Source of the DNA: Asparagopsis taxiformis
Lineage: Eukaryota; Rhodophyta; Florideophyceae; Bonnemaisoniales; Bonnemaisoniaceae
Reading direction: 5' to 3'
NCBI GenBank assembly: GCA_030407315.1
Contig: JALQPE010000503.1
Location: 1 to 64,000 of the forward strand
DNA length: 64,000 nucleotides
This document shows, in pieces, positions 5,235-37,295 of the stretch. Below the pieces are notes generated by a model. The model had not been told where the DNA came from and did not search any database. It saw only the letters and a program-made list of their open reading frames with translations. A program made the position numbers and the translations under genes. Numbering within the stretch: the stretch's first letter is position 1; each line of letters begins with the position of its first letter.

Positions 5235-5278
5235 CGGGTGGGCCGACTCCTCTCCATCCAACGGATACGCGACGCGCG

Positions 5279-11354: not shown

Positions 11355-14177
11355 TCAGGACGGAGGTGCGCGCGTGTCATCGTCTCGACGCGTGTGACGG
11401 CTTGACGAACTACCCGCCGTATTGCGCGAACGAGCGCGGCTCGAAGCCGTATCTGCCTGGTGACCGCGTCGCCGTTCGGGATTCAACACCCGAACGACGC
11501 GCCCATCATGTACGCCAATCCGAAGGGGAGGAATACTTGCGCGACCCGTCGAAGCTGCGGCCGCACGCGAACGCGTCATGGGCCGTGCACCGCCGCGTCC
11601 TGAGCCAACGCTCCCCGCAACGTCACGTACCGCTTCTGCGCGCAACTCGCTCACGGACTGCGTTTCGCCAGCTGACTCTTTCTCACCCACGGACCCAGTC
11701 GGGGACCGCTGCAGGAAACCAACGACATCGTTCAACGCCGAACCCAACCGGTGCGCGCGTTCGATAGTGTCTTGAACCTTAAGCACGGTATCCCTTTCTC
11801 GCGCGCGATATTCGTCGCGCACCGCAGCGATACGAGCTGACGACCGCCCCCTTTCCGCTTCCAAATTGGCTTCGACTTCGACGAGAACACGCTGCGCCGT
11901 CTGCTGAGCGGTCACCGCAGCGTCACAGCGAGTTCGAAGGTTCGCCAGCGCCGCCCGATCACCCTCAGCCTCCTTCCTGTACGCCGCTGCACGACCTTGT
12001 AACTTCCCAATGTCTCCGTGCATACGCTCGATACGCGCAGCGTCTTCGTCGACCTTGCGTTTTAGCGCGGCTTCGCGCTCCTCCGATTCCGCCAACGTCT
12101 TCCGAGTCTCGCGCAGGACCGACACGGCTTCGTCACGTGCCTCAGACGCATCATCGCGCGCCTTGATAGCCTCGTCGAGCGCTTTGGTGGCCGCGCTAAG
12201 TCGCCCCAAAGCCTCGTCGCGAGCTTGCGCGACCGACGTCACGCGCGCCAACGCTTCATCTCGACCCTGCTTGGCCGAAGAAAGTTGAGTTCGTAACCCG
12301 TCTGCCGCCGACGAACCAGCGACTGCAACAGCGTCGTCACCAGCCACCGCCGTGGGCGCTTCTGCACTCTCGCCAACAACCGCCGAACCCGATGCCGCAC
12401 CGCTAGCCGTTGCCGCACTCGCACCCGCTTCGCCAGGCATGTTGGCGGCGCCTTGACCTTGAGTGGCTTTCTTCAGTTCTTGTAACTCGTTATACACCTT
12501 TACGTACTCCGCACGCAACGCCGCGTCTAACTGCGCAACGTCGATAGGAGCCCGTGGTGCTTCGGAGAACAACGAGTAGCGCCCATCGCGGAATCGCCGG
12601 CGCTCAACGGCCAACAACGCGGCCATCCCAAGGTCCTGCGCATATTCCCGCGAGTTCGTTGCGCGCATCACATGCAACTCGTTAGAAGACAACGCCGACA
12701 AGACAGCATCCACGGTAACGACGTCGCCCGCTTCTAGATGCGCGAACGCGCTACGCGAAGGGTTGCGCGGCGACTTCAATAGCAAGTGAGGGATTTCCGT
12801 ATGCCTGTGAACTCCGAGCGCGCCATGCGCCCAATCCACGACGCCGCGTTCCGCGCTCCACGGTAGCCACTGGCCACCTTCATTGAAGTCCACGCCGGGA
12901 GCCACGTCGAAGACAGGCGTCTCGTCCCATGGACACGCGCGATGCTCCGACAAGAGACTTTCTAAATGCGCGACAGAATAGGTGCCGCCACGAACGACCG
13001 CCGCAGCGCCGACGCTCTCGATACCGGCGATGAGCCGGTCGCTCAAGCGAACGAAACGACGCTCGACGAACGCGACATGAAGCCAGGCGCAGGCCACCAT
13101 CACGACCCATTCGCTAAGCGCCACGGCCCAGAAGTAGGAACGCGTCTCGACCGGAACATCAAGACCAAGAAGAACAGATGGTGCATAATGGAAGACGCAC
13201 GGTAGGGGAACGGACAGCGATTCGGGAGCGTCAGGCCAGTCGCGCGGGTCATAGCGCGGAAAGAAGGAACTCACGCGATCTTCTGGGAACTCGCGAAATT
13301 CGACGTCGCGATGCGTAACGAAGTAACCGGTCGTGCGACGCAGGCGCAATTCACGACGCGCCTCGGAGCGCATCCCCGCGTCGAAAAACCAAGGCTCACT
13401 AACTTCTCCCTCCCGTTCAACATCATTCCAGGGGACGCCGCCGTCCAACAAGAAACCGGCGCTAGGCGCCGCCGCCCAGGGGTCAAGATGCGCGAACTCG
13501 TCGCGGCGCATTGTGCGAAGACGAGCCAAGTGACGCACCAACCGCTCGTCCGCCGCGTCCTCTAGGAAGTAAGTGTCGCAAGGAAGGTTCGAGGGTACAG
13601 CCAAGTCGCACCACGCCGCCTCGCGTCGCGCATCCCATACGGCTTGCGCGTTCTTGTGGCCAGGCAATACCGCATAGCGGTTGACATCGGCGATACGCGT
13701 CCACAGGAAACGCCGGGGAAAATATTGGACGCGACTCAATTCGGACCAAGTTGGCATCGCGCGCGGCAGGAACCGGAACGCAGAAGGGTCGTCGTAACGC
13801 GCACGCGGAGCGGCGACGGGGACGCGCTGCGCGGCCGAAGGGAGCGACACGGAAGAAGGGGCAGGTACGGAACGAAGAGGCACGCCAACGTTGGCACGAC
13901 TCCCAGCCGCGGGTGTAGCGGTTACATCCACTGTCGCAACGACACCCGACGACGCACCGACATTATCCGCGTTATGCGCACTTGACGACGCGGCAACCGG
14001 CGCGCTGGCAGACGAAGCTTGGGCCATTGACAGATAAAATGGGCTCTCGGGGCTCATAGGAGATGGCGAAGCGGGACGCGGAGCCGCTGATGGCGAACGT
14101 ATCGGCGTCGCAGCTTCTTCGCCTGAAGGGACACTGGCGCGCAGCCAGCTAGGAAGGGTATCACCGTCGTGCGCCAT
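11355..14177 (-). CDS. Antisense coiled-coil ORF inside Gypsy-1
   Basis: A 940-residue open frame on the strand opposite gag-pol, filling the space between pol and the 3' LTR. I chose the ATG at 14177 (MAHDGDTLPSWLR); the frame extends 12 codons upstream only through a TTG. The N-terminal ~130 residues are Ser/Ala/Pro-rich and probably disordered. A globular middle (about 130-560) is Trp- and Arg-rich (FRFLPRAMPTWSEL, RFLWTRIADVNRYAV). Then comes an Ala/Gly-rich hinge and a long coiled coil (about 620-810, repeated ARDEAL-type heptads). The tail is basic and Arg/Ser-rich. I do not recognise the family. Antisense ORFs in the 3' region are known in some plant Gypsy lineages (Tat/Ogre, Retand-type). 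The long uninterrupted frame in a young element argues that it is kept by selection, but this is inferred. Confidence 0.7.
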   Translation of the reverse strand: MAHDGDTLPSWLRASVPSGEEAATPIRSPSAAPRPASPSPMSPESPFYLSMAQASSASAPVAASSSAHNADNVGASSGVVATVDVTATPAAGSRANVGVPLRSVPAPSSVSLPSAAQRVPVAAPRARYDDPSAFRFLPRAMPTWSELSRVQYFPRRFLWTRIADVNRYAVLPGHKNAQAVWDARREAAWCDLAVPSNLPCDTYFLEDAADERLVRHLARLRTMRRDEFAHLDPWAAAPSAGFLLDGGVPWNDVEREGEVSEPWFFDAGMRSEARRELRLRRTTGYFVTHRDVEFREFPEDRVSSFFPRYDPRDWPDAPESLSVPLPCVFHYAPSVLLGLDVPVETRSYFWAVALSEWVVMVACAWLHVAFVERRFVRLSDRLIAGIESVGAAAVVRGGTYSVAHLESLLSEHRACPWDETPVFDVAPGVDFNEGGQWLPWSAERGVVDWAHGALGVHRHTEIPHLLLKSPRNPSRSAFAHLEAGDVVTVDAVLSALSSNELHVMRATNSREYAQDLGMAALLAVERRRFRDGRYSLFSEAPRAPIDVAQLDAALRAEYVKVYNELQELKKATQGQGAANMPGEAGASAATASGAASGSAVVGESAEAPTAVAGDDAVAVAGSSAADGLRTQLSSAKQGRDEALARVTSVAQARDEALGRLSAATKALDEAIKARDDASEARDEAVSVLRETRKTLAESEEREAALKRKVDEDAARIERMHGDIGKLQGRAAAYRKEAEGDRAALANLRTRCDAAVTAQQTAQRVLVEVEANLEAERGRSSARIAAVRDEYRARERDTVLKVQDTIERAHRLGSALNDVVGFLQRSPTGSVGEKESAGETQSVSELRAEAVRDVAGSVGSGRGGARPMTRSRAAAASTGRASIPPLRIGVHDGRVVRVLNPERRRGHQADTASSRARSRNTAGSSSSRHTRRDDDTRAPPS

Positions 14178-14350
14178 AACGAAAGCAAGCGCGTGCGACA
14201 ACGAGCGAAACAACGGATGCGAGTGACCAAGGAGAGAAGAAGGATAGAAAGAGAGAGAGAGGATCGACAGGAGGAGAGTGGACAGAGAGAAGAAAAAGGC
14301 AAAGGATACGCAGGAAGAGATGACGCGCGGGGACGCGCTGTGATGTTAGT

Positions 14351-14359
14351 CGGGGGGAG
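14351..14359 (+). other. Gypsy-1 polypurine tract
   Basis: CGGGGGGAG lies directly before the 3' LTR terminus TGTGG. This is the expected primer for plus-strand DNA synthesis. Confidence 0.75.
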
Positions 14360-15148
14360 TGTGGTGCAATTTATGCCGCTAACGCGAACGCGGCTGAGCG
14401 ATATCGACGAGTTGAGTCCGCGTGCATCCGCGTTGAGTTAGTTAGTAAGCGAGCGTACGCGTGGCGGACCGATTACGTGTCACGGTGCACCTGCGCGAAC
14501 GCGTGCGATTGCGAACCCGGCGCCACGTGTAGCGATTTCGACGAATTTCCCTTTATTTCCCCTTTTTTGGGTTTTTTATGACGAAAGTCTTTTTCCCAAA
14601 TATTTCCCTTTTCGCGTGCGAGCGAGCGGCCGCCGGCCGGCCACGGTAGGACAGCCTGTCCTTTAGTAGTTAGCTATTAATGGTCGTTCAGCTTCGCACC
14701 TTACCAATAAACAGCCAGCATCTTCGCAGCTACGAGTTAAGCGTTTAGCGAATCGCGAGGACCGATTGCGTTGAAACGTTGCGTGCGGGTTGCTCACGAT
14801 CGCCGACGTTCGCGTGCGCGCTGCGCATAAACCGATCGTCGAACCGCGTCGCACCGCGATAGCGCGCGTTGCGTCGCACGCCACTAGGCCAGGGATTTAC
14901 GACCCCTGTGTGGATCGCGTTGTGCTCGAGTTTACTCGGTGATCTCCCCCTGAGATCACGGCTTGCGCCGGCCCGCGAATCCCGTGTTGCGATCGTTCCC
15001 AACGCGTTCCGCGTTGTACCACCCGTTCGCCAGCGCGACCGAGCGACGCGCGAACGCAAGTTCAACCAGCGCGTTACGGTTCACCTCGCCCTGACACGGC
15101 TGCAATTCTAGAACTCCCTTAGCGATCGCCACCCCGGCTGGTCCTACA
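14360..15148 (+). repeat. Gypsy-1 3' LTR
   Basis: Pairs with the 5' LTR at 1898-2687. It ends CCTACA and is followed by the target duplication TATGG at 15149-15153. Confidence 0.95.
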
Positions 15149-16530
15149 TATGGGACACAGCAAATGAAAAGGTCGTTGTGTCGCGAGACGTAGTGTTCGA
15201 CGAGCTGCAGAAGAAGCGTTTACCATCTTCTGATACAGACTACAACAGCGTTGATGCTGCTCCTGAGTCCAATACTGAGCCATGGGATGGAGATGGCAAG
15301 TCTGGTCTCTCTACCAAACAGGATACTCCTCCTTCATCCCATTCGGACTCTGACTCTGACACCAACGCTCCACAACCTCAATCTCCTCCACCAACTCCCT
15401 CAGCATCTACTGATGAGTCTCTCCTTAACGCTCCGCGTAAATCTTCTCGATCTCGTAAACCTCCGGGTGAGTGGTGGAAAACAACTGCCCTTGTCTCCAC
15501 TACTGCTGATACCACTCCGGAACATCTTCTTACCTTCACTGAGGTGACCAAGGGGGAGGAAAAAGATCTCTGGATTGAGGCCATTCAGTCCGAGATGGAT
15601 TCCCTCGAAGCAAATGGCACCTGGATTCTGGTCCCCCGCAGTGAAGCTCTCAACCTCCTCACTTCGAAGTGGGTCTTCAAACGCAAAGATGTTGTCAGTG
15701 AAACTGGTGAGCACTCGATCAAACACAAAGCTCGACTCGTAACTCGAGGATTCCAGCAGAAGTACGGCATCGACTACTCCGAGACTTATGCCCCCGTTGT
15801 CCAGTTCTGTACCCTTCGCATGTTCTTTGCGCTCACTGTCCACCACGATTTGCACTGCGACCAAATGGACGTCAAAACAGCCTTTCTCTACGGAGATCTC
15901 GAGCAGGACATCTTCATGGAGCAGCCGGAGGGATTTATCGACTCGAAGCATCCAGACCATGTCTGCAAACTGCAAAAGGCTCTATACGGACTCAAACAAG
16001 CTCCGAGGCAGTGGCATGCTAAGATCGATGACTTTCTCATTTCACAGCTCGACTTCCAGAGCTCTCCGTACGATCCATGTTTCTACGTCAGGTATCGTGA
16101 CGACTCTATGATCATCATTGCACTATACGTCGACGATATTCTTCTTGCCTCAAGCAGTAGAGATATGTTGGATGAGCTGAAAGCAGAGTTCAGCAAGCGT
16201 TTCGAGATGAAGGATTGTGGTAGAGCTCGGGTATGTCTTGGACTAGAGATTGCGCGCAACACCTCGAAAGGACTGCTACACTTGAACCAGTCTCGCTACG
16301 CTGAGAAGGTATTGGAACGGTTTGGAATGGAAAATGCAAGTCCGGTTGTTACGCCAATGCAAGCTCAGATCTCCGTCGCGGATACCGAAACTGAGCCCAT
16401 AGACTCTACGCTCTATCGCAGAGCAATTGGCAGCCTGATGTACCTAGCGGTGAGAACTCGCCCTGACATCGCATTTGCCGTTGGGAGACTTGCACAGTTC
16501 GTTGAGGCCCGCCAAAAGCTCTCTGGGTAG
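15149..16530 (+). pseudogene. Copia-A reverse transcriptase
   Basis: The frame resumes after the Gypsy-1 insertion. A Ser/Pro/Asp-rich linker is followed by a well preserved Copia-type reverse transcriptase (RVT_2): WIEAIQSEMDSL, TSKWVFKRK, YSETYAPVV, QMDVKTAFLYGDL, KALYGLKQAPRQW and the catalytic YVDD at 16126-16137. The frame ends at a stop (16528) created by a one-base shift at about 16505-16512. In the next frame the sequence continues as WVAVKRVLRYIAGT, the normal link to RNase H. Reverse transcriptase itself looks intact, but the polyprotein is broken by Gypsy-1 and by this shift. Confidence 0.9.
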
Positions 16531-18041: not shown

Positions 18042-18387
18042 GGTTGTTGAGTTGGAAAGGAAAAGAGATGGTTGACGTTGACGTATTGGAGTGATGTGGA
18101 TGGTAGGTTTCACGTTGCTTGAAGAATGGTCGTGAACGCCAATCGCTGGAAATAATAACACAATACAACCGAAATTTTGTTAGGTACACACCTATCGTGA
18201 CCGCTGGAATGCAAGACAGGCAATCGAGATGTGAGTGTCCGTTCGGAACGGGCCCGAGTCGGGCTCTCGAAACCTGACGAGGTGGCGTGAAGCAGGCAGT
18301 GTCCTTGATGTGTAATGTGTTAAAATTACAGCTGTCAAGCTAGGCGGCTTTTGGGGCGGCTGCGAACACCCCTTTATCCGGGGAACA
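18042..18387. other. Intergenic, no gene seen
   Basis: Upstream side of the minus-strand ORF at 17594-18041. I see no coding similarity or clear promoter box. Confidence 0.4.
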
Positions 18388-18776
18388 CCCTGATTTGAGT
18401 TAAAATTTGGGCTATTCTCAAAAACATGCACATGTGAACATGTTTTTGAGATGGGGGTGTGCCGTACGGCACAATCGACCCGCTGAAATCAAGGTTTTTT
18501 GCAATATTTTTTGTGCCCGAAATTTTAGAATTTCTGGGCTGGCCAGCAGTGCAATCGAGCTGGACATCCACCGGACGTCCATTTCAGGTTGGTCGTGAGA
18601 CAGTGAGGCGGGACCATGATGGAACAAGGACCAAGACCTGTCCCTGACGTGTTGAGCCTGAAATCGACCCGTCGTGAGACGAGATTTTGGCTTACAGTTA
18701 GTGTTTACAGAAGCCAGAGACAACCCCACTCGGGGCGGCGGCCGGTTCCTGGGGCCGTTCTGGCCAAATTAAGACA
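18388..18776 (+). repeat. R389 repeat, full unit
   Basis: A complete unit of about 389 bp, from CCCTGATTTGAGTTAAAATT to GGCCAAATTAAGACA, followed at once by the start of a second unit. The head contains a 12-base inverted repeat (CTCAAAAACATG / CATGTTTTTGAG, about 18417-18450) and the perfect 14-bp palindrome GTGCCGTACGGCAC (about 18459-18472). Other copies are at 18777, 20086, 24047-24239 (inverted), 63416 and 63747. It is not coding. Confidence 0.85.
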
Positions 18777-18950
18777 CCCTGATTTGAATTAAAATTTGGG
18801 CTATTCTCAAAAACATGCACATGTGAACATGTTTTTGAGATGGGGGTGTGCCGTACGGCACTTTCGACCGCCCAAATCGATAAAATTTTGCAATTTTTTT
18901 GCTGCTCGAAATTCTATAAGTTCTGGGCTGGCCAGTGATGCATTAGCTAT
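18777..18950 (+). repeat. R389 repeat, 3'-truncated unit
   Basis: Second tandem unit. It keeps the head with both palindromes and stops near CTGGGCTGGCCAGTGATGCA, where similarity to other copies is lost. Confidence 0.8.
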
Positions 18951-19479
18951 CTCCTCTAAACCGATTCTAACAAGCAGAAAGAATCCTCTCCTTCATGACG
19001 ATGCTCTCGAATTGAGGGCAATGCAACGGACTCCCTCCAAGAGAACGATAAAGCATCGTCTTTTCCAAGGCATTTCCGTACGAAAAATAATCGAAAAACA
19101 TATTTGAATTTAACCTAACAGCTATCGCGAGCACCGTACTCAGCTATATTTCCTCAGTAATTTCCTTCCTCCAACCAATCAATAGCCGCTTGGTCACAGG
19201 CTTAAAAGCCTTCCACTATCTGTCCTATCCATCGAAGACCGTCGGAGGGTTCGATCCAGGCCTTGATCACCCATGATGGGTGTGCAACCCGAGAAAATGA
19301 AAATGGAACATATTGCGACAGGGACGAGATATCATTCAATGAAAGAGAACTTCTCTTTCGTTTACTTTTTTCTAACAAGATTCTAAACGTCTACAAACCC
19401 TATGTCGTCCGTCCGTTTTCATCCCGGAGAGATGTGGATGTGAGGTAAGACGCAGTGGTGATGTTGTGTTGATTCCCAC
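18951..19479. other. Intergenic, no gene seen
   Basis: About 530 bp. Only short open frames without recognisable domains. No repeat was matched to elsewhere in the window. Confidence 0.4.
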
Positions 19480-19860
19480 AGACGGAGGTGGAGGAGGTGG
19501 CTACGGAGGAAGCCTGGAGAACTTGTCCGGTACTGACATCTCACATGTTGAACATGTGAGATGTCAATACCCATGGATGAGAAGAAAAACATGACCAGGT
19601 CCGGTTCGGATATTGTTGCCATTAACGGAGGCGGAGGAGGCGGCTACGGTGCAAGCCTGGAGAACATGTGACTCACATCTCGGAGATGTCAGTACCCATG
19701 GATGAGAAGAAAAGCATGTTGAGGTGCGGTTCGGATATTCGATCCATTAACGGAGGTGGTGGAGGAGGCTATGGTGGAAGCCTGGAGAAGAATAGAGTAT
19801 TCCTATACCCATGGATCACAAGAAGACGTTGTTGGGCTCCTTTTCGAAGCCCATTCGTCT
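19480..19860 (+). repeat. Three-copy tandem repeat encoding Gly-rich segments
   Basis: Three degenerate units start at about 19482, 19625 and 19750 (spacing about 143 and 125 bp). Each has a GGAGGNGGNGG stretch that in one frame reads NGGGGGGYGGSLE, followed by a segment reading TACCCATGGAT. The third unit is in a short open frame (RVFLYPWITRRR). It is probably the decayed remains of a repeated exon or of a satellite. No start codon or complete gene is evident. Confidence 0.5.
19534..19566. repeat. 33-bp perfect inverted repeat
   Basis: TGACATCTCACATGTT, one G, then its exact reverse complement. It lies in the first unit of the Gly-rich tandem repeat and could extrude as a cruciform or fold as an RNA hairpin. 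Confidence 0.85.
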
Positions 19861-20085
19861 CTTGAATAAATTTAGCACCCAAATCATATACGATTGCCGA
19901 GTTGACACCCCGTATGTCTCGTTGGTAGAAATAGCAGGGGTTCCACCACTCAGCTGGCGGGAAGTAGTTACTGATTATATGAGATATGGCTTAGCTCCCG
20001 CCAAAACCGATAGCTCTGGGCTCAGGTTCTCCAAATGTGGTTATACGAATGTGTTCTGACAATGCTAGAAGACGAATATCTGCAT

Positions 20086-20280
20086 CCTGATTTGAATTAA
20101 AATTTGGGCTATTCTCAAAAACATGCACATGTGAACATGTTTTTGAGATGGGGATGTGCCGTACGGCACAATCGACCGCCGAAATCGATGTTTTTTGGAA
20201 TATTTTTCTGCCCGAAATTGTAGAATTTCTGGGCTGGCCAGCAATGCATCTGAGCTGGACATCCCCATGTCCAGTGGCCG
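20086..20280 (+). repeat. R389 head, left inverted repeat of the MTase-SET unit
   Basis: Begins CCTGATTTGAATT and carries the CTCAAAAACATG stem and the GTGCCGTACGGCAC palindrome. It is about 190 bp long. The reverse complement of the same sequence lies at 24047-24239, so the two copies face each other around the methyltransferase-SET gene like terminal inverted repeats. No target duplication could be seen at the outer edges. Confidence 0.75.
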
Positions 20281-20614
20281 TCCGGATGTCGCTCACCTGG
20301 TAAGCGTGATGCACCTGTGAAAACCTATGTGACTGCAGTCACAGCCGCCATGGCGGCCGTGCAGTACAACCCTCAAAGACAGGGAATCACAATCTTTTTA
20401 AAATTTTTCTCTACCACGTATCCGTCACAACTTATTACCTACACCGGTTACGAGTTTCAAGACCTTTCCAGTGCTGTGTACCCGTATACTCTGTTCAGTT
20501 CGATATCAACCAGTGTTCCTCACGAAAGAGTGCAAACGTCACGAGATACGTCGTCAAATTTGACTGTCTCGCCGAGCGGTCGCCATCCTGTACCGAATTT
20601 CCACTCATTCCATT

Positions 20615-23600
20615 ATGACGAATAAGCGCAGGCGCAACAGCAATCCGATCGTTGACGACGCAACCGTGCCAATTCTGCGCGAACCCGCTAGCCCTTGGGA
20701 GGATTCTAGTGACATGGGTACACGTCGAAACGTAGGTCGCGCGGCCCGCGAAACTACTCTCGCTGGCAAAGACTTCCTCCGCCTCTTGCTGGATTTATTC
20801 GCCCACTCAAGTTTCGCAGACTTGACGGACAAGCCGGGAGGTTTCACATACGCGGACCTTGGCGCTTGGGTTGCGCAGGGCACGGAAGAACAATTTGCGG
20901 CGCTGCAAGGTCGACTCAGCATGGCCTTCAGCGGTCGTTCGAAGAATGCTGGAGTCGAGGCGGATGTTGCCGAAATCGTCATGGCAGAGATGAACGTTGA
21001 GCGAGCCAAGCAGATTGTTCGTCTGGCATTACCGATTGCCGAGTTTTCAAGACAGGATGAGCGTATCGGGCAATGGGTTGAGCACTGCATCCTTTCTGGG
21101 ATCGTGCCGCAGACCTTCCTTATTGGATGTAACATGCTTCCTTCGCCACTACAGGCGCCGCAGCGCGGGGAACCAAGCGCCTTCGTTCTTGCTCCACCGG
21201 AAACGTTCGAGGTATTGATGTATTTCCAAGCGTTGTCTATCATCCGAAATCACAACAAGAACCTGCCGCGTCGCCGAATAGGCGACGCGGCCGAAGAGGG
21301 GAACGAAGCCGCACGCGTCCCAGCCCATCGGAAAAGCACTAATCGAGCTTGTTACGTGGTTCAAGTTTTATACCATGCTTGGACCGATGTGGCCTTCGCC
21401 GCAAAGTTTTCCAGCTTCGAAGAGTTGATGGCGCCGTACATCATTTTCGACAGCAGTGAGCATTGGTTTGACGTGCTCGATGAAGGTCTATTCGCACCGA
21501 TAGAGCAGAAGCTAGATCTCTACCACGACAAAGCTCCCCTATCTCATCCTGATGGATATGGTGGAAAAGTAGAGACAAGAACCAGTGCGCAGCACAGTGC
21601 ATTTAGGGACCTTGTGAGGAAGTTCTTCGACCGGTTGCAGTTTCTTATCGTCAACCCGGACCTGTACACCTGGCCGGAGTCCGACCGCTGGGGGGCGCTG
21701 GAAATATACTTGTCAAGCGGAAATCCGGACAAGCTGCCAGCGTACTTTGACACCCTCGACGAAGACGTTATGGCTGTCCTCCGCCCGGCACCACAAGCCG
21801 CGGACGCAGAAAAAGTCCCCAAGCCGGTTGATGACACTCCCACTCGTCGCAACACAGGAGGGAGATGTTTGGTTCCGTCGACAAGACACACAACCAGGCT
21901 TCAACTTGGACCTAGGAGGACCAGTCTTACTGCCCAAGGGCCGTCTCCCCCGTCACCGTCACCCCATGCGACAGAAGAGCAGGAAAGTGAAGGGCAGGCT
22001 CTCGCAAAGGACTTTCTTTCGAAAATGAGTCAGTATTGCCGGGTGTACGACGTCCCTTTCGAAGATTTGGTCAGTGCCGACGAGAGCCGAGAACACGTGC
22101 CCATCACGGGCAACGTTCAGCTCATTCTGACTGATCCGCCCTACAATGTTCGTCGTAAGAGGAACGATTCCAACTCTTCGTACGACAGGCTAACTGCAGA
22201 AGATATGCAGGCTAGCATCGAAGTGTTTGACGAGCTGTTGCGCCCCGGTGGCCACGGCATCGTGTTCTGCTCCGTTTTGCAGTTCTACGAATGGTTCCAT
22301 TACTTGGAAACGTACAAAGGACCGCAGTCAGAAGGCCCAACCGATGCTGCTACCAGTGATGACGGGTCGGATGAAGAAGAGGTTACGTCCATGAATTCGG
22401 ACTCCGAAGCATCGCAGCACAGTGGCGAAGAAAGTGCGGATGAGGATGAGGACGAGGAGGAGGAGGACGTCGTTCGGAATTCAGTTTTCTTCGTTGACGA
22501 GGTACCTCTGTTGTTTGTCCGACTACCTGGGCACCTCTATCAAATGCCGGGGCGGAAGAGGTACCAACGCATGAACATGGCAGAGGTCGCTATCCACTTC
22601 TGGAAGCGAGGTGTTCCGTTCAAGACCGGAAGCGAGATGGTGGCCTATAGGAACCACGGATACATGGACGGCACGTACCCGGCGTGGTGCAACGTCACCA
22701 TCAATATGCCCGCCATCGATTCGAATGAGATGGTGTGGCGAACAAGGAGCACAACCGGTGCTACGGTCAGAGTTCGTGCAGAGCAGAAGAGCGTCGCTCT
22801 CATGATGGAGTTGATCAGCCAGCATTCACAGCCTGGTGATATTGTTGTCGATCCATTCTCTGGCACTTTCGCAACGGGAAAAGCAGCTATGAGCTTGCTT
22901 GAGCACCGTGTTTTCGTCGGCAGTGACATGGACAAATTGTGTGTGGCACGATCGCTTCCAAAGCTGTGTGCAGTCATGTCACGTGTAATTCTTTCAAACA
23001 ACACTGACATGAGGGTCACGACAGAAGCGAAACAGAGTGCTGAGAAGTTCTTGGCGTCCCCCTCTGTCACGATGCGTACGCAGAGGGAACGCAGGATCAT
23101 CGAACCCCCACCTGGCCTTCCCCTGTACCAGAGGTTCCCGAAATATATTCGGCAGTACCTCTGGCAGCTGTGCCCAGAGTCGATTGCGTCGCACGAGCAC
23201 ATGGAAAAACCGGTACATTATTGGCCACCTTCCCTGCGCCGCTGGTTGCAAACTGAAAACCCTCGCGTGATGCGGGCACACGATTGTGTTGCGAAAAAAT
23301 TGAGCGTTCGACCATCGCTGATTAAGCATCCAAATGCAGGAAGAGGGCTCTTCGCTGAACAGACATTTAATGTTGGCGACGAAGTATGTGCATACTACGG
23401 AACTGTTGTGTACTCTGATATGAGCAAGGAGTCGATGAGGTTCGCGTACGGAGAGGGTCACATGGCGATAACGAAGGAAACATTCTTGATGTATGCCATC
23501 AAGCTGTATGCAACAGCGGAGGACGACGAAAACATCGAGCATCCAATTTGGATTGTTCCGGCTCCGTTCTGTTCGGCGCAGTTCATCAACGACCCGCGGT

Positions 23601-23812
23601 ATTTGCGAGGTGAGGACACTCCGGCGGAAGACACCAGGCGGATGGCCAACGTCGAGTTTGTCGAGAACTACAGCAGCGGTTCGACGGGGAAGAAGCTCAA
23701 GGCGAAGGACCTAGAAAATCCGAAGATCATTGTAGTACGTGCAATCCGCGATATCCGTCCGGGGCAGGAGCTCTACGTTCATTATGGGACAGCGTTTAGA
23801 GCATGGAATTAG
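20615..23812 (+). CDS. DNA methyltransferase-SET domain fusion protein
   Basis: Intronless frame of 1065 residues from ATG 20615 (MTNKRRRNSN, a basic NLS-like start). The N-terminal ~480 residues are unrecognised and partly helical. A DNA methyltransferase of the PF01555-like N6-adenine/N4-cytosine class follows: DPPYNVRR at residues 507-514 (catalytic motif IV), an acidic insert (about 580-625), then the SAM-binding motif DPFSGTFATGKAA at 746-758 with GSDMD after it. Motif IV before motif I is the beta-class order, and DPPY rather than SPPY favours adenine. The C-terminal ~170 residues are a SET domain: KHPNAGRGLFA (about 903), QFINDPRYL, NVEFVENYS and the closing GQELYVHYGTAFRAW. So one protein appears able to methylate both DNA and a protein lysine. 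It is bracketed by inverted R389 copies. Domain calls are firm; substrate and activity are inferred. Confidence 0.85.
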   Translation: MTNKRRRNSNPIVDDATVPILREPASPWEDSSDMGTRRNVGRAARETTLAGKDFLRLLLDLFAHSSFADLTDKPGGFTYADLGAWVAQGTEEQFAALQGRLSMAFSGRSKNAGVEADVAEIVMAEMNVERAKQIVRLALPIAEFSRQDERIGQWVEHCILSGIVPQTFLIGCNMLPSPLQAPQRGEPSAFVLAPPETFEVLMYFQALSIIRNHNKNLPRRRIGDAAEEGNEAARVPAHRKSTNRACYVVQVLYHAWTDVAFAAKFSSFEELMAPYIIFDSSEHWFDVLDEGLFAPIEQKLDLYHDKAPLSHPDGYGGKVETRTSAQHSAFRDLVRKFFDRLQFLIVNPDLYTWPESDRWGALEIYLSSGNPDKLPAYFDTLDEDVMAVLRPAPQAADAEKVPKPVDDTPTRRNTGGRCLVPSTRHTTRLQLGPRRTSLTAQGPSPPSPSPHATEEQESEGQALAKDFLSKMSQYCRVYDVPFEDLVSADESREHVPITGNVQLILTDPPYNVRRKRNDSNSSYDRLTAEDMQASIEVFDELLRPGGHGIVFCSVLQFYEWFHYLETYKGPQSEGPTDAATSDDGSDEEEVTSMNSDSEASQHSGEESADEDEDEEEEDVVRNSVFFVDEVPLLFVRLPGHLYQMPGRKRYQRMNMAEVAIHFWKRGVPFKTGSEMVAYRNHGYMDGTYPAWCNVTINMPAIDSNEMVWRTRSTTGATVRVRAEQKSVALMMELISQHSQPGDIVVDPFSGTFATGKAAMSLLEHRVFVGSDMDKLCVARSLPKLCAVMSRVILSNNTDMRVTTEAKQSAEKFLASPSVTMRTQRERRIIEPPPGLPLYQRFPKYIRQYLWQLCPESIASHEHMEKPVHYWPPSLRRWLQTENPRVMRAHDCVAKKLSVRPSLIKHPNAGRGLFAEQTFNVGDEVCAYYGTVVYSDMSKESMRFAYGEGHMAITKETFLMYAIKLYATAEDDENIEHPIWIVPAPFCSAQFINDPRYLRGEDTPAEDTRRMANVEFVENYSSGSTGKKLKAKDLENPKIIVVRAIRDIRPGQELYVHYGTAFRAWN

Positions 23813-24046
23813 GGTCACGAAAGATGTTTTCATTTCGACTACAAATAAAGCTACGTTCCAGAGTTGAAGTATATCATATAATGCAGCATGTCCAGCCACC
23901 ATTAGTCCAGGGTGAAACCTATTGAGCAGTACTCGCCTGTCAAAAACCAATCGTTCACACTCTAGGTGCACTTCGTCCGAGCAGTGAACCTGACTGCTTG
24001 GTTGCTGTTATGCGTGCAGATGCAAAATACAAGACCAAGTTGAAAT

Positions 24047-24239
24047 GGACGCCCGGTGGATGTCCAGCTCAGTTGCATTGCTGTCCAGCCCAGAAATTCT
24101 ACAATTCAGGGCAGAAAAAAATATTGCAAAAAACATCGATTTCAGCGGGTCGATTGTGCCGTACGGCACACCCCCATCTCAAAAACATGTTCACATGTGC
24201 ATGTTTTTGAGAATAGCCCAAATTTTAATTCAAATCAGG
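24047..24239 (-). repeat. R389 head, right inverted repeat of the MTase-SET unit
   Basis: Reverse-orientation copy ending AATTCAAATCAGG at 24239. It carries both palindromes and aligns with 20086-20280 along its whole length. The pair bounds a 4154-bp unit. Confidence 0.8.
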
Positions 24240-24481
24240 ACGTCTTCCGGACATAGGGGTGCTCGCGGCCTAGCTCTACAGCTGTAATTGTACCTCATTA
24301 AATACTGTTGATGACTGCCTACCGTATACAATACATGCAATCTGGGCTGTTGGCGTATTCTCCGGTACTTGACCTGACCTGAACGTTCATCGCAGACCGT
24401 TGTGGTTACCGACACTATACAGCAATCTTTTTTGTATCTCGTGCAACTCAATCGTTCCATCGCTTCCGGGAAAGCTTCATT

Positions 24482-25279
24482 ATGCCGCCGCGTATTGCGA
24501 AGAAAGCTCCAAAGCCTCCGGGCCTCCAGAAAACCCGGTCAGCAGCTGCTGTATCGAGTGCCCGACAATCCCGTGCGAAGAAGCGGTCTGGGCCTACCGG
24601 CAGCATTGAACCGCGGTCCGGTAGTCGCAAGACGGACCGGCGCAGAACTGGGGATCCGCAGCGAGAAAGTGAGGAAGGAGGAACGGCGCGGAGAGAGATG
24701 GGGCTTGACCGAGGCAAGCGTGCTCGCAGGGACAGTGAACATCATGATGATGACATGATAGTGGCTCAAAACATGTTGGAATTGCGGCAGAGTGCTATGG
24801 CAAAGGTAGTTCCTCCCGGGTTGGCAGATGCGGAGGTGCTGCAGACGGAGTCCCAGCCGGGGGTTCGCGAGACACTGGAGGCTGTGACCCCCACTGCGCC
24901 AACTATGCCGAGTACATCAGCCCCAGCAGGTAATGCAGTCAGGGACCCGAGGATAGCGGCAAGGGATGTTGTTTCTGAGCAACGTTCACAGGATGCCAAC
25001 TATCATCGGCGGTCAGGTGGTACTGAGGGGAGAGAGCAGCCGGAGTGCGGGCCTCGTCACAACAGAGTGTCATTGGTGCCAAATATGCGCGTAACGCCCC
25101 CGCGACGTCAGGCTATTGGCGATGGAGGACATCATATTCCCGATAGCGTGGGAGATGGGGGGACGGTGAGGGCAGAGAGGTTGCATCCGCCGGAATCCAT
25201 CGATTTAATGGCGAGTCGCATCAATGCGCAGAAAAAGAAGATCGCGGAGCTGGAAAAAAAGTGTTTAGCCAGGACATAG
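24482..25279 (+). CDS. Basic disordered protein, zero frame of a two-ORF gene
   Basis: 265 codons from ATG 24482 (MPPRIAKKAPKPPG). Very rich in Arg, Lys, Ser and Pro, with no globular domain seen. It ends in a short coiled-coil segment (INAQKKKIAELEKK). The stop at 25277-25279 lies just past an A_AAA_AAG heptamer. The coil pattern continues in the -1 frame, so this ORF and 25261-26766 probably make one protein. The family is unknown. The same-strand position behind the methyltransferase-SET gene and tail-to-tail with the transposase suggests a transposon accessory gene. Confidence 0.6.
   Translation: MPPRIAKKAPKPPGLQKTRSAAAVSSARQSRAKKRSGPTGSIEPRSGSRKTDRRRTGDPQRESEEGGTARREMGLDRGKRARRDSEHHDDDMIVAQNMLELRQSAMAKVVPPGLADAEVLQTESQPGVRETLEAVTPTAPTMPSTSAPAGNAVRDPRIAARDVVSEQRSQDANYHRRSGGTEGREQPECGPRHNRVSLVPNMRVTPPRRQAIGDGGHHIPDSVGDGGTVRAERLHPPESIDLMASRINAQKKKIAELEKKCLART
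25255..25261 (+). promoter_or_regulatory. Candidate -1 ribosomal frameshift heptamer
   Basis: A_AAA_AAG in the correct phase of the upstream ORF (codons GAA AAA AAG at 25253-25261). A -1 slip moves reading exactly into the downstream frame at GTG 25261. No convincing downstream stem or pseudoknot was recognised by eye. A simple loss of one A in the run of seven, in the genome or in the assembly, would look the same. Confidence 0.45.
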
Positions 25280-26766
25280 CAAACAAGGCGCTCACCACGG
25301 AGATAGTTGCGTTGGAGGCTAAGGTGAAGACTCTGCAGGCGGAAAATGCCAGCCTTACTGCAATTGCGAGAACAGGTAGAATCAGTGATCACGGTGGCGG
25401 TAAGTCGAAAATACAGAAAGCCATTCCTGTGAAATACCTTGGAGTTCTTAGGGCGGTTGAGGAAAACCTGACAAAGTGGTGCAAGAACGAGACTATGGAG
25501 CTGGACCCTATAGCGGAACAAACGCAGAGACGTTGGACTGGACGTACCATCGAGGTAGAGCCGGTAGAAGGGACACTTTGGAGCGAAAACGGTGTAGGAT
25601 ATATTGCTACCCCTCCGGGCTATATCATCAAGAATCTGCAGTGGTATACACCTTCGTACAGGGACGAGAGTGATCTGCTGAATGACTTGGTGCGACACGT
25701 ACTGCGTCAAAGTCCGTGGTGTGATGTGTTTTCCGATGAGGAGCAGCGTGTGTGCTGTCAAGAGGCTGTGGCGGGGAGCAAGGAATTGAAAGTGAAGGTG
25801 ACGCAGAAACTGTCCGACGTGATGAGTGCACGGAAGCGTAATGCGAGGGACAGATTGTTCGGTTCGCTGGGGTACACGAAATTAATGTCTAGATGCACGA
25901 TGCTGACGACGCGAGCTGAGATGGACGAGCGAGAGGATCAAAAGCGCGAAGCGTCTGAGAAGCTTTTGAAACGGGAAAGCAACGGTGATTTGGATATGGG
26001 GAGGTGGCGAACGGCACCGTTCTCAGAGCTGCGATACAGCAAAGGCATGGTTCCTGACAGCTTCGAAATGGAAGTGAATGGTGATGCATGGTTTAACAAC
26101 CGAGTAGCTGTGAATGTGCTGGACATCTTCAGGGGGTATTCGATACGACCAGAACAAGTAATGGACATAGAGACGAGCATACTAACGCTGGCGCGCCTGG
26201 ATGCTTGGCTAGTGACTACTGTGGAGTGTTTGGATGAACCGAAGGGGAAAGGAGGTGCACGGCAGAAGGAGTTTACAAGGCGGTACAGTCAATATGTGGG
26301 GGTAGCTTTTCAGCAATTAGTTGGTATGGTGGTGTACTGCATGTCTTGTCTCCAAGGCTCGCAAGCAAGGGAAGAAACGGACGTTGTCGAGAGCGAACAG
26401 CGGACTAGTGCACAGTCACGGCATGTGTTTGCAAGCCGTACTGTGACGAGAGAGGCTGTTGAAGTGTGGCAAAGCGGAGAGGGGTCTGGAATTGTTCATG
26501 TCGTTGATGATGTAAACCGCTGCTCATCACTTGTTCTAGTGTCCGAGGATTGGATTCAATCGCATATTACGTCAAACCTCGGTGCTGTAATGGATTGTGT
26601 GATTGCGCAAGGACTAATTGGCGCAGAACTTTTCGTCGTTGACCCATATGCTGGACACCTGAGTGCAAACCTGAATGTCGAAATCAATGCCCCACAGTAT
26701 GGGGGCATGGAGCGGCGCCATGCAGCCACTGCTGATAACGGTTTTGGCGTAATGGAGGATGGTTGA
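25261..26766 (+). CDS. Unrecognised protein, -1 frame of a two-ORF gene
   Basis: About 501 codons open from 25261. The first codon is GTG and there is no good ATG, which supports entry from the upstream frame. It begins with a coiled coil (TTEIVALEAKVKTLQAENASL) that continues the heptads of the upstream ORF, then a globular part with KYLGVLRAVEENLTKWC, LVRHVLRQSPWCDVF and VMSARKRNARDRLFGSLGY. I do not recognise the family. It ends 77 bases before the convergent transposase gene, so the two genes are tail to tail. Confidence 0.6.
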   Translation: MFSQDIANKALTTEIVALEAKVKTLQAENASLTAIARTGRISDHGGGKSKIQKAIPVKYLGVLRAVEENLTKWCKNETMELDPIAEQTQRRWTGRTIEVEPVEGTLWSENGVGYIATPPGYIIKNLQWYTPSYRDESDLLNDLVRHVLRQSPWCDVFSDEEQRVCCQEAVAGSKELKVKVTQKLSDVMSARKRNARDRLFGSLGYTKLMSRCTMLTTRAEMDEREDQKREASEKLLKRESNGDLDMGRWRTAPFSELRYSKGMVPDSFEMEVNGDAWFNNRVAVNVLDIFRGYSIRPEQVMDIETSILTLARLDAWLVTTVECLDEPKGKGGARQKEFTRRYSQYVGVAFQQLVGMVVYCMSCLQGSQAREETDVVESEQRTSAQSRHVFASRTVTREAVEVWQSGEGSGIVHVVDDVNRCSSLVLVSEDWIQSHITSNLGAVMDCVIAQGLIGAELFVVDPYAGHLSANLNVEINAPQYGGMERRHAATADNGFGVMEDG

Positions 26767-26843: not shown

Positions 26844-27716
26844 TTATTCTTCTTCATTATCATCTGTGAACTGGTAATCAGTGTTGGTGTAGAAGCGGTT
26901 GAGATAGAAACGGTGGTCCGACCAGTGCATTTGTTTCGTAAATGGCTTGACTGGAAAGTTACTTCGTACGATGTGCACGGTGCCAGATATAGTAGATGCA
27001 GGAATGAGGTCAAACCAAGGACCACCTGCACTGTGGGATGCAGTGTCATTGCTGTCAACGGATCCGTTGTCCGGGTCCCATGTGGACCACTTTAAACAAA
27101 TGCACCCAAGTGATTTTTCCACAGCGGTTTTTGGGGCAAAGCAGGTCATATACTGAACGAAAGCGAGTTCTACAGGTTGAAACAGGTTTGGAGACTGCAG
27201 GCGTACCAGTGCCAGGACGCGCCCTACCCATATGGTTCTGTAGTCATCGGCAGTTCCGGAGATGACGACAAAGGAGTACTGCGATCTCTTTGCGGGGCCG
27301 AACGATGAAGTTGCAAAGACGCGCTGCTGCTTGTGCCTCGACACGTTTGTGGGGCGAAGCATGCCACTGTGCGGGTCAAAGTCGTCGGCATCTGGGACGT
27401 ACCCTCCCATGACGTAGGCGGACTTTACCACGGTGACGGAAATGTCCATGTCATGTATTGGAGGGCCTTCTGCCGTGGCGCGCAGTCTAGCGAGGGTGAG
27501 GAACGCTTGTGCAGCTGTGTCACCGAGTTGCTGGAATAGCGTTATGGTGCCAGACGGGAACGAGGAGTTGTGCAGAGGCAAAAGAGTGGCAGGATCGGGC
27601 TGTCCGTCGATATCTGCAACGAGGAGGGTTGCATCGGGCAGCAGGGAGGCAAAGTCGTGCAGTGCAACGGTGAATCCGTCGCGAACGAGTACTGCACCGT
27701 CTGTGGGCGATATCAT
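26844..27716 (-). CDS. Plavaka/KDZ-like transposase, C-terminal part in shifted frame
   Basis: 290 codons from an ATG overlapping the stop of the upstream transposase ORF (sequence GCATGATATC). It is in a different frame, so the two are most simply one protein split by a one-base indel; a programmed shift or a separate protein is possible. It contains DGFTVALHDFASLL, SVTVVKSAYVMGGYVP, RTIWVGRVLALVRLQ and ends with VHIVRSNFPVKPFTKQMHW, HRFYLNRFYTNTDY. This resembles the C-terminal region that follows the catalytic core in KDZ/Plavaka transposases. The tail is acidic. Confidence 0.55.
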   Translation of the reverse strand: MISPTDGAVLVRDGFTVALHDFASLLPDATLLVADIDGQPDPATLLPLHNSSFPSGTITLFQQLGDTAAQAFLTLARLRATAEGPPIHDMDISVTVVKSAYVMGGYVPDADDFDPHSGMLRPTNVSRHKQQRVFATSSFGPAKRSQYSFVVISGTADDYRTIWVGRVLALVRLQSPNLFQPVELAFVQYMTCFAPKTAVEKSLGCICLKWSTWDPDNGSVDSNDTASHSAGGPWFDLIPASTISGTVHIVRSNFPVKPFTKQMHWSDHRFYLNRFYTNTDYQFTDDNEEE

Positions 27717-29884
27717 GCGTGGGTTCCCAATGTGTTCGATGGGGTGTGACCAGTTGGAGTGGCCAAGGAGAATTCCATGTGGCGAATAGTCTCTTCCATG
27801 GCTGTGGAGCGCCTTCGAGAGGTTTTCCTATAACTCTGTTTGAACAGAAGATGCGAGTGTTCGTAGGGGCCTGCATCAATGTGTTCCAGGGCGCCATATC
27901 TCTGCAAGTCACCGGGAAGATGGTCTAGAAGATGGAACTTGAAAGTTTTGAGACCTGTGGTGTGGAATGGGCCGAGGGTGGAGAGCATTGATTGTTTGAA
28001 ATAGGAAATGGAGTTCTGGAGGCTTTCTAGTTCGGCGGCAGTCCAGTGCTTGATGCGACCGCGTTTCATGACCCATGCGACGAGGTCAGAGTATTGCGTG
28101 CAGATGGAAGTGAGGGGGGCTGTATCTACTTCGTCACAGCATGTGTCAATGAATGCTGCGATGAAAGGGAACACCATGTCGACATGGTGATAGTCTTTGG
28201 CTGCGAGCATGCCGCGTATGCCGTCCTCCGTGAAGAGGCCGTTCAAATTGGTGCCCTTCTCACCCTTGGAGAAGTCGACATGAAGACCGGTGATGTAGTA
28301 GTCGCGTTCGATAGCGGACAGAATGCTGTTTGAGCCGGCGAGGATGGATTTTTTCACCTTCTTGAAGGTGCGAGGTGTCCCGGAATGGGAGGCAGTGGTG
28401 GTGGTGAGGTCTGGGGAGCTGAGGCGGTGGACAATGCACTGTTTGATGAGCTTTGAGATGCCGAGGTGGAGATTGTGCAGAGGCTCGAAGGAGAAAATGT
28501 TGTAGGGGTCTAGGGGACTGTTGGTGGGTAAAAGAGCGGTCGATTCGAGGACAGAGTGTTGTTCGAGGAGGGAGAGAGCTTCGAGCGGAGCAGTTGTATG
28601 CTCCTGAGCGCTCTCTTGGCGTGCAGAGCGTGTATCATCGAGGGAGCGGGGCTGGTGTGGCGCGGTGGATTCAAGTTGAGTGGCGGGGATGTAGCAGCGG
28701 TGGCAGGGATGTGTGGTGGTAGTGCTGTTGCGAGTGCATGACAGCTCTTTGGCCTCTGGAAAGTCGCAGCAATAATTGGCTAGGATGGGAAAGCATTGGC
28801 GGGCAGTTGCAGTGGAGTCTGTGCAGGGGAACCCGGAAGAGAACGCGGTGGATAGGGACGAAAACACTTTTTCGAGTGCTTTATGAAGAATATCAATTTT
28901 GCGAGCGCGACTAGCAGAACTAGAGGTTGTCGGCATTTCATCACCGAACAAGGCGTTGGACGAAGGGTTAACAATGTACGGAAGATACCCGACGATGGTG
29001 AGGCCGGTACGGATGCAGTGGCGACGGAGGGGGGCGGAGAAGTTGAGCAGTGTGACGTGTATGGGGTATGCGACGATTGCGGAGCTCTTGAGGCTTGTGC
29101 TGCTCTTGTCGGAGTACACTTGGAGGAGGCCGGCAAAGGAGGAAGGGGTGGGATCAGTTTCCTCTGCCCATACGACCTGTGGATCTTCCGAGAGCTGCAC
29201 GCGCTGTCTAGTAACCTGGTGCAGCGTTTTCGCGAATTCTGTGTGTAGGGGATGAGAAAATATTGCGGTGCCGTCTGGGGCGGTCTGTGGGGAGGGGTGG
29301 AAGAGAGTATTTTGGTCGTTAGCCAGTGCTAACTGCCTGCGGAGCATGTCGACTGGGTCGCGGAGGTACAGCTGTGCCGAGTACTTACCAGTTTTGTCTG
29401 GAATGATGTGGCTCTTGTAACCTTCGGTGCGGAAATGTGTTTCGACCATGGAAGCGGTAACGTGGCGACATTCTTCTACGGTGCGAACGGCGCTGTTGAA
29501 CTTTTCTAGGGAGAATGCGGGGTCTTGTAGGATGGTGATGACTTCGCTCACGCGGCCAGCGCCGGCCTTGTACTCGAGGGTTGTGAGACTGGCGGCGAGG
29601 GATTGCACGAGGAGGTCTGCGCGGGAGGGGGTTGAGGTTGGTGGCAGTGGAGCGTCACAGGGTGAGTCGCTGGAGGAAGCACGACCAGATTCTGGGTCTG
29701 GGGAGCTGGGTTGCGGGGAATCATGGTCGCCGTTTCGAGCAGGCTCATGGGTGACGGCAGGGACACGAGCGTTGTTGAAATGTTGGGGAGAGGGGTTGAA
29801 ACGGTAGCGACACGTTCGCTCATGCAGCGCGAGCGCATAAGCATCTACGCAGTAGTAGAAGCACCCTTCATACTTGCATTCCAT
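27713..29884 (-). CDS. Plavaka/KDZ-like DNA transposase, catalytic part
   Basis: 723 residues from ATG 29884. It begins with a Cys2-His-Cys finger (C3, C8, H21, C25: CKYEGCFYYC and HERTC), typical of the DNA-binding start of this family. After a Ser/Pro linker comes the core: GLLQVYSDKSS (first catalytic Asp region), AYPIHVTLLNFSAPLRR and IVGYLPYI, then a Cys-rich insert (CCDFPEAKELSC, HPCHRC), FEPLHNLHLGISKLIK (the LHQxxKG-type block) and EHIDAGPYEHSHLLFKQSYRKTS (the C-terminal catalytic block). The arrangement matches Plavaka/KDZ-superfamily transposases. Terminal inverted repeats of the element were not located. The frame breaks near the C-terminus (see 26844-27716). Confidence 0.75.
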   Translation of the reverse strand: MECKYEGCFYYCVDAYALALHERTCRYRFNPSPQHFNNARVPAVTHEPARNGDHDSPQPSSPDPESGRASSSDSPCDAPLPPTSTPSRADLLVQSLAASLTTLEYKAGAGRVSEVITILQDPAFSLEKFNSAVRTVEECRHVTASMVETHFRTEGYKSHIIPDKTGKYSAQLYLRDPVDMLRRQLALANDQNTLFHPSPQTAPDGTAIFSHPLHTEFAKTLHQVTRQRVQLSEDPQVVWAEETDPTPSSFAGLLQVYSDKSSTSLKSSAIVAYPIHVTLLNFSAPLRRHCIRTGLTIVGYLPYIVNPSSNALFGDEMPTTSSSASRARKIDILHKALEKVFSSLSTAFSSGFPCTDSTATARQCFPILANYCCDFPEAKELSCTRNSTTTTHPCHRCYIPATQLESTAPHQPRSLDDTRSARQESAQEHTTAPLEALSLLEQHSVLESTALLPTNSPLDPYNIFSFEPLHNLHLGISKLIKQCIVHRLSSPDLTTTTASHSGTPRTFKKVKKSILAGSNSILSAIERDYYITGLHVDFSKGEKGTNLNGLFTEDGIRGMLAAKDYHHVDMVFPFIAAFIDTCCDEVDTAPLTSICTQYSDLVAWVMKRGRIKHWTAAELESLQNSISYFKQSMLSTLGPFHTTGLKTFKFHLLDHLPGDLQRYGALEHIDAGPYEHSHLLFKQSYRKTSRRRSTAMEETIRHMEFSLATPTGHTPSNTLGTHA

Positions 29885-30500
29885 GTCGAGTTTTGACGCA
29901 AAAGGGAGGATTGCGAGCTGAACAGGGGAGACTGTGCCGTCCAGATGCGACCAATTTTATTTTTGTGGTGCTTTCGAGACTTGGAATGTAACGTGTTCGT
30001 TCGTAGTTTTGTGGGTAGTAGTTTTGTGCTCACTCCAGCTGACATCCCAACGGTGGAATTTAACCGAGAGTTCAATCATTTCCAACTGTTACATCACATT
30101 GCGTGCTGGCAACGTGTGCATGGAAGGACGAACGACTGCCCTGGGAGATGAATTTTCAATTAATTCATTTGTAATAATAAACTTTTTTATTTCCAAACTT
30201 CGTGGAATCTGAATGTGCTTTACAGCGGATATGCCACGGATCATGTAAGGAAAGCAAATGGATTCTCATATATATGATTATATGTTTATATTCGTTGTTC
30301 TCGATCCGGATCTCATTGTTCGGGGAATCAGAGACCATGGCTTGGGCCATACTCAATCTCACTGCCGGCGATGATTTCGAGTATGCACAGCAAGACTTAA
30401 GCGGACGCTGAAAGCTGTCCGGTCGACGCCGCAGGCTCCACTCCGCCCTCATCACCGACTGAGATTCTTTGACCGCCTTTGCTTTGTTTAGTGTAGAGGA
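29885..30500. other. Intergenic, upstream of the transposase
   Basis: AT-richer sequence with only short open frames. It should hold the transposase promoter (minus strand) and perhaps the transposon end, but no inverted repeat partner was found. Confidence 0.4.
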
Positions 30501-30558
30501 TGGAATGAAGTTACGTGCGCGAATCTTGATCAAGATTCGCGCACGTACCTTCGTTCCA
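30501..30558. repeat. 58-bp near-perfect palindrome at an element end
   Basis: 29-base arms (TGGAATGAAGTTACGTGCGC onward and its inverse) with two mismatches. The central 34 bp (30513-30546) are a perfect palindrome. The homologous copy at 39705 keeps only one arm, so the hairpin has been lost there or gained here. Confidence 0.85.
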
Positions 30559-31359: not shown

Positions 31360-31515
31360 GATACGTATTTCTATTCTGGCTGGATACATATTCCGTATTC
31401 TGCTGGATACGTATTTCGTATTCTGGCTGGATACGTATTCCGTATTCTGGCTGGATACGTATTTCCTATTCTAACCGGGTATTTATTTCCTATTCTGACC
31501 AGATATGTATTCCTA
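31360..31515 (+). repeat. ~24-bp tandem repeat
   Basis: About six imperfect units of TATTCTGGCTGGATACGTAT type inside element X. A matching array is at about 40515-40650 in copy 2. Confidence 0.75.
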
Positions 31516-31642
31516 TTCTAGAGAGACGTATTGTATACGAGCAGTTTCCTAAATGAGAGAATAAAATACGGTCCGATATGGGCCCTGAATTTACCATCCG
31601 CTGTAATTTCTTCCCTCCCGGTTTTCGCTGATATATTGTATA

Positions 31643-32115: not shown

Positions 32116-32249
32116 GTGGACGTCCGCATCCAAAAAATTTTTATTTTTTTTCGGACGCGGACGTTCATTTGTTCTAGTAAATCTCGGGGCCGACTAGGAC
32201 CCGTACTAGAGAGACTGGACGTCCGCGTCCACTTCCGAAAACACAGACG

Positions 32250-34656: not shown

Positions 34657-34748
34657 TGTTTCGGGTGGTAACGGAGGCGGTTTTTCGCGCGGCGGTTGCG
34701 TCGTTGCGCGTCGCGTGTCCGTTGAGTGCAGAGGAGTCGGCCCACCCG

Positions 34749-37293: not shown

Positions 37294-37295
37294 GT

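Follow-up and report, generated by a model that had tools for sequence, protein, structure and literature searches.

A putative DNA methyltransferase joined to a SET domain, encoded within an inverted-ended unit of Asparagopsis taxiformis

Introduction

In eukaryotes, DNA methylation is normally tied to histone methylation through separate enzymes, each recruiting the other, and hosts silence repeats by such coupled methylation. An open reading frame (ORF) in a 64,000-nt stretch of the red alga Asparagopsis taxiformis (contig JALQPE010000503.1, assembly GCA_030407315.1; the whole stretch is hereafter called the window) raises the question of whether both kinds of writer can reside in one protein and, if so, whether they serve the host or a mobile element. 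An earlier note, made from the sequence alone, had read this ORF as a beta-class methyltransferase and a SET domain in one intronless protein. Here we describe the domains of the protein, its relatives and the inverted-ended unit in which its gene lies.

Results

A single frame encodes a methyltransferase and a SET domain

The frame at 20615-23812 is single and uninterrupted, comprising 1065 codons and a stop. Both domains were matched above the Pfam cut-offs: PF01555 (N6_N4_Mtase) at residues 501-774 (E = 3.3e-15; 57.1 bits, cut-off 26.7) and PF00856 (SET) at residues 909-1058 (E = 1e-6; 29.5 bits, cut-off 22.4). With the methyltransferase motifs standing in beta-class order (see below), the fusion read by the earlier note was confirmed, and the profile search that might have found neither fold recovered both. 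The term 'intronless' fits this ORF; for the family it is hardly informative, because the protein database appears to favour uninterrupted ORFs. The N-terminal helical domain gave no match in Pfam and PHROG scans, is conserved among the relatives and was predicted with a pLDDT (predicted local distance difference test, given in blocks of ten residues) of mostly 75-93, with dips to 42. No relative of this domain was detected among the other window ORFs of at least 50 aa.

The protein belongs to an old family

The full-length protein was compared with 5.8 billion predicted proteins, the best 7999 candidates being scored, and eight relatives were obtained. A single-sequence search with one relative, P0003, returned 15 rows, including P0003 itself and ten new proteins; a profile search for further relatives returned P0001 alone among the best 8000 candidates. 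Altogether, 18 distinct database proteins align with the window protein in the order methyltransferase, SET (19 rows). P0001 is 98% identical to the window protein (17 differences), the remaining 17 relatives share 26-37% identity with it, and P0017 bears the label 'DNA modification methylase'. Across the 19 proteins 36 columns are invariant, far beyond chance, including P508, P509, D746, G750, T751, N992, D993, R1009 and N1012.

Pfam, at E-values up to 0.1, recognised the methyltransferase in all 19 members and SET in 17; the precomputed annotation of the database gives SET for 13 of the 18 relatives, and the SET core is visible in every aligned row. Of 17 rows examined for the N-terminal domain, 15 possess it; the near copy P0001 and the truncated P0005 were left out. 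Since these domains are shared across divergent relatives, the order N-terminal domain, methyltransferase, SET is old. The ORF is thus a member of an old protein family that is undescribed as far as our searches reach. Pairwise distances of the methyltransferase agreed with those of SET (0.45, 17 rows) and of the N-terminal domain (0.57, 15 rows); in each case none of 2000 permutations reached as high a value.

A viral origin of the fusion was considered and rejected, as scans based on short patterns recovered no SET-bearing record among viruses, phages or prokaryotes. A 9-row family alignment matched at least 75 loci in viral contigs, all of them in methyltransferase residues only and mostly over ~50-90 residues. 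SET-based and single-protein scans of the viral contigs, tblastn against 50,697 phage records and two scans of prokaryote genomes (11 and 32 candidate stretches) yielded no relative; the viral and prokaryote scans rely on few short peptide patterns and are weak negatives.

The methyltransferase domain follows the beta-class order

In beta-class enzymes motif IV, of the form (D/N/S)PP(Y/F/W), precedes the recognition part, which is followed by motifs X and I; the target-recognition part accordingly sits between motif IV and motif X. The ORF displays this order, with DPPY at 507-510, EQK at 723-725 and DPFSGT at 746-751. The modelled methyltransferase has the Rossmann-like fold of known members and resembles CcrM, M.BceJIV and M1.HpyAVI; this whole-model comparison bears on the methyltransferase alone, the N-terminal domain and SET having no listed match. 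PHROG 67 matched the domain as well (3.7e-18). Judged by sequence, the methyltransferase is of the prokaryotic or phage kind. Adenine-N6 is its likelier putative target.

Motif IV reads DPPY in 14 of the 19 rows (the window protein and 13 relatives) and DPPF in one. The other four carry the non-canonical forms DPPQ, YPPY, APPQ and DPPL, and these losses require at least four separate changes on the maximum-likelihood tree. P0005, which has YPPY, groups closely with its sister P0009, which has DPPY, and hence its loss is recent. The D...GT of motif I, which binds S-adenosylmethionine (SAM), is retained in all 19 rows. The motifs suggest that the window copy is probably active in its methyltransferase part.

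The SET domain departs from the usual motif

The landmarks GRGLFA, FINDP, NVEF and YVHYG quoted in the earlier note are all present. Its description of a full set of SET landmarks holds for these motifs but not for the residue after FIN, an Asp, which gives Asn-Asp instead of Asn-His. SET enzymes usually carry Asn-His within N-H-S-C-x-P-N, and the KMT2 rows aligned here display it. Asn-Asp at 992-993 occurs in 19 of 19 rows, and R1009 and N1012 are likewise invariant. The constancy of Asp in place of His marks it as a family trait and not as decay of the window copy. The terminal Tyr-Gly at 1057-1058, containing the catalytic tyrosine, is found in 18 rows, P0005 ending before the Tyr. Post-SET cysteines are absent, and the protein ends a few residues past Tyr-Gly. 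From these residues, the SET part of the window copy is possibly active.

The SET piece of the window protein alone had KMT5A as its best solved match (0.0015), with which another search weakly agreed. The 19-row profile gave an EZH2 construct first (2.3e-6) and KMT2B at 0.0011, and a 6-row C-terminal profile gave KMT2B (9.9e-8). As the top solved match shifts with the query, a leaning to KMT2/MLL was rejected.

The gene lies between inverted arms

Self-comparison of the window revealed that the ORF is enclosed by two inverted arms, a setting absent from the earlier note. The arms match over a main block of 241 bp (89.6%) and over outer ends of 33 bp (85%). Their match scores 294 bits; the best among 100 first-order resampled controls reached 28.5. 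TAATG is read inward from both outer ends, a sequence compatible with a TA target duplication. Of a subterminal repeat unit, three copies point inward, situated within the left arm and 5' of the gene, and one, in the right arm, points back; the copies contain a 36-bp near-palindrome. An exact match of the arm repeat motif was not found in viral contigs. The unit sits in an element-dense region. A pair of Plavaka transposase ORFs lies 2.5 kb away from it; the longer ORF (723 aa, 27713-29884), which carries PF18759 (E = 1.6e-24), begins 3.4 kb past the right arm. Mobility is the simplest explanation for the unit at 18313-24300, and the methyltransferase-SET gene is probably the cargo of a mobile element.

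At the window edge (63427-64000) more copies of the subterminal repeat are present, 89-95% identical to stretches of 18385-18942, and another element may begin just beyond it.

Discussion

A candidate element that marks its own DNA and chromatin

Tentatively, and with doubt slightly ahead of belief, we propose that a writer of this old family is the single long gene of a ~6-kb element with inverted ends and marks the DNA and chromatin of that element. The unit would be a non-autonomous DNA transposon, or else cargo within a larger transposon, and the Plavaka-type transposase of the neighbouring ORF may be what moves it. The recognition part, possibly together with the N-terminal domain, would direct the methyltransferase to methylate DNA in or around the subterminal repeats, and SET would methylate nearby proteins, be they histones, the transposase or others. 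In this way the element might remain expressible or mobile despite repeat silencing by the host. Two soft arguments lead us to prefer an anti-silencing effect: expression should benefit a mobile gene, and the accessible text of PMC12695648 reports eukaryotic N6-methyladenine (6mA) at permissive chromatin.

Several observations weigh against this proposal. A target-site duplication was not established at the arms, the subterminal repeat units occur also without the gene, and no transposase was recognised among the longer, scanned ORFs within the ~6-kb unit. Neither an inverted pair nor shared ends joining the Plavaka ORF with the unit were found. Published Plavaka termini, as given in the parts of PMC12730594 consulted, are TGT..ACA or CATCA..TGATG with a 2-3 bp target duplication; the arms, starting with TAATG, are unlike them, and the left end offers no CATCA to pair with a TGATG at 24309. 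The loss of canonical DPPY in four of 19 rows suggests that activity is dispensable in some copies. SET, lacking a steady leaning to one lysine methyltransferase, lends an activating mark no support. The distances of SET and the N-terminal domain agree weakly (0.21; 197 of 2000 permutations as high). Finally, the 90%-identity cluster of P0001 comprises 13 sequences, one contig being given; it may fit many copies of an element, or alternatively strains or repeat assemblies.

Alternative explanations

The gene could instead be a chromatin gene of the host, a eukaryotic writer acquired long ago and flanked by chance by unrelated dispersed repeats. The intact ORF and an architecture conserved over deep branches agree with this, and the arm repeat unit, being present also at 18774, 20083 and 63427-64000, can occur apart from arms. 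The inverted match, however, extends beyond the dispersed unit to 18313 and 24300 (the 33-bp outer ends), and the 13 near-identical sequences, the independent losses of motif IV and the element-dense surroundings fit a mobile gene better. We therefore regard a host gene as unlikely, though worth serious consideration.

The four non-canonical rows of motif IV bear on a second alternative, namely that the protein is mainly a binder whose catalytic domain or domains recognise DNA or chromatin in the service of transposase targeting or of coating, with little or no methylation. A SET domain without the His of Asn-His, without post-SET cysteines and ending soon after Tyr-Gly would suit such a role. 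We consider it rather improbable, as DPPY is intact in the window protein and 13 relatives, DPPF occurs in one more, motif I persists in every row and the SET residues Asn, Arg and Asn are invariant.

The earlier note had proposed that the two writers could jointly reinforce silencing of the locus. EZH2, the best solved SET match of the 19-row profile, is a silencing enzyme; this match decides nothing, because other queries rank KMT2B or KMT5A first. In the bdelloid rotifer N4CMT, an amino-methyltransferase is linked to silent chromatin via a chromodomain (PMC8885841, in part). A mobile gene would gain little from its own silencing, and the reports of 6mA at permissive chromatin (PMC12695648) point the other way, so that self-silencing appears quite improbable. 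As a whole, the interpretation given in the earlier note is partly supported.

An assembly artefact joining two genes, which that note had named as a possible refutation, has no point in its favour and is practically dismissed by the 18 separate proteins, from three source kinds (ena, lgn, jgi), that share the methyltransferase-SET build.

Comparison with known systems

In fold, in the order IV...X-I, in DPPY and in the SAM motif, the ORF is like the beta-class N6-adenine methyltransferases CcrM, M.BceJIV, M1.HpyAVI, MboIIA and RsrI. CcrM-type enzymes are free-standing and prokaryotic, whereas the ORF encodes a eukaryotic protein of 1065 aa with an acidic insert, an N-terminal domain and SET. 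N4CMT, as described in the accessible part of PMC8885841, is a host gene that makes N4-methylcytosine (4mC) and ends in a chromodomain, a reader. The partner in the ORF is SET, a writer fold; moreover, the ORF has DPPY and an element-like setting, and a search at E-values up to 1 gave no chromodomain match in it, unlike N4CMT.

Element-borne epigenetic enzymes are already known; new here is the combination of two putative writers in one chain. HarbingerS and MuDR DNA transposons of Phytophthora carry a SET histone-methyltransferase gene (PMC12730594, citing Repbase Reports 2014). By this description, the sole basis of our comparison, they resemble the present case in having a SET gene on a DNA transposon, and the portion consulted mentions no DNA methyltransferase. 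The window holds 21 ORFs of at least 200 aa; the 15 of them that were scanned gave no match to a Harbinger or MuDR transposase, and 10 further or longer frames gave none to Harbinger. DNA methyltransferases as element cargo are represented by DIRS elements with Dam-like enzymes and by SymbioLINE/SymbioDIRS-Dnmt (PMC5890265, in part). These are retrotransposons with Dam-like or C5 cytosine enzymes, unlike the ORF, and the term 'SET domain' is absent from the main text of that paper. Fungal DNA transposons including PlavakaB carry TET/JBP, proposed to evade silencing (passages of PMC12730594); their cargo is a dioxygenase, an eraser, whereas here two putative writers reside in one protein. Fungal MetB is a bacterial-type adenine methyltransferase acquired by fungi, according to the part of PMC13297926 consulted; it belongs to PF02384, whereas the ORF belongs to PF01555 and is fused to SET. 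Among the best matches in 5.39 million open PMC papers, as far as their text was accessible, no fusion of a DNA methyltransferase with SET was found, and subscription reviews may mention one.

A broader possibility, which we hold to be doubtful, is a class of eukaryotic mobile elements that use a double writer, a bacterial adenine-N6 methyltransferase and SET in one chain, to place a DNA mark together with a histone or transposase mark on their own subterminal repeats and escape silencing. If true, the double writer would be an anti-silencing counterpart of the host pathways that act on transposons through DNA and histones, and would reveal mobile elements as builders of epigenetic writers for their own ends, beyond erasers such as TET/JBP. 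One natural protein with both kinds of writer would make the coupling of DNA and histone methylation testable with a single purified protein, and through it the question of eukaryotic 6mA and 4mC would gain a rare PF01555 enzyme.

Surroundings of the unit

Table 1. Positions of the features described in the window.
Feature	Position	Strand	Details and basis
Methyltransferase-SET ORF	20615..23812	+	ATG to stop, intact, 1065 aa: N-terminal helical domain, beta-class amino-methyltransferase, SET
N-terminal all-helical domain	20732..21784	+	~residues 40-390; alignment, Pfam/PHROG scans, predicted structure
Beta-class amino-methyltransferase domain	22025..23014	+	~residues 471-800
Catalytic motif IV, DPPY	22133..22144	+	residues 507-510; alignment
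Acidic low-confidence insert	22328..22477	+	residues 572-621, between motifs IV and X; predicted structure
SAM-binding motif I, DPFSGT	22850..22867	+	residues 746-751; alignment
SET domain	23300..23788	+	~residues 896-1058, Asn-Asp 992-993 in place of Asn-His; Pfam, alignment, model
Left inverted arm	18313..18597	+	begins TAATG; self-comparison, resampled control
Right inverted arm	24030..24300	-	ends CATTA; self-comparison, resampled control
Two subterminal repeat units	18385..18942	+	at 18385 and 18774, with 36-bp near-palindrome
Third subterminal repeat unit	20083..20264	+	just 5' of ORF
Plavaka transposase ORFs	26844..29884	-	723 aa (27713-29884) and 290 aa without match, 4-bp overlap
Gypsy element, left of unit			ORF 5279-9508; long terminal repeat (LTR) pair 1897-2692 / 14359-15153, 98.6%
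Copia ORF, left of unit	15178-16530		
Partial second Gypsy copy	32249-38077	-	93.4% to 1897-7735

Between the arm unit and the Plavaka ORFs, two overlapping ORFs of 265 and 501 aa lie in different frames (24482-26766, + strand); a coiled-coil-like stretch apparently spans the overlap, and neither ORF scored above the Pfam cut-off. A 952-aa minus-strand ORF (11355-14213; 996 aa from stop to stop) lies within the left Gypsy element; it has no match above the Pfam cut-off and is perhaps a chance antisense frame. The LTR elements, the Plavaka ORF and a gene at 46 kb with an apparent intron mark the DNA as eukaryotic. Scans for tRNA and Rfam families gave no match in the window, and comparison of base composition and dinucleotides revealed nothing telling.

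The partial Gypsy copy has a long direct repeat on either side (30572-32249 and 39734-41696, ~92%); these repeats are not its LTRs. Tandem repeats of 43 bp occur in both and are more abundant in the left one (31558-32210). The left repeat is bordered by an 80-bp inverted repeat (30490-30569, 90%), and half of this sequence is found again at 39704-39734, ahead of the right repeat. Further downstream, at 46055-46669, a protein of the metallo-beta-lactamase fold (PF00753, 9.5e-15) with a signal-peptide-like start is encoded, apparently by a host gene with an intron.

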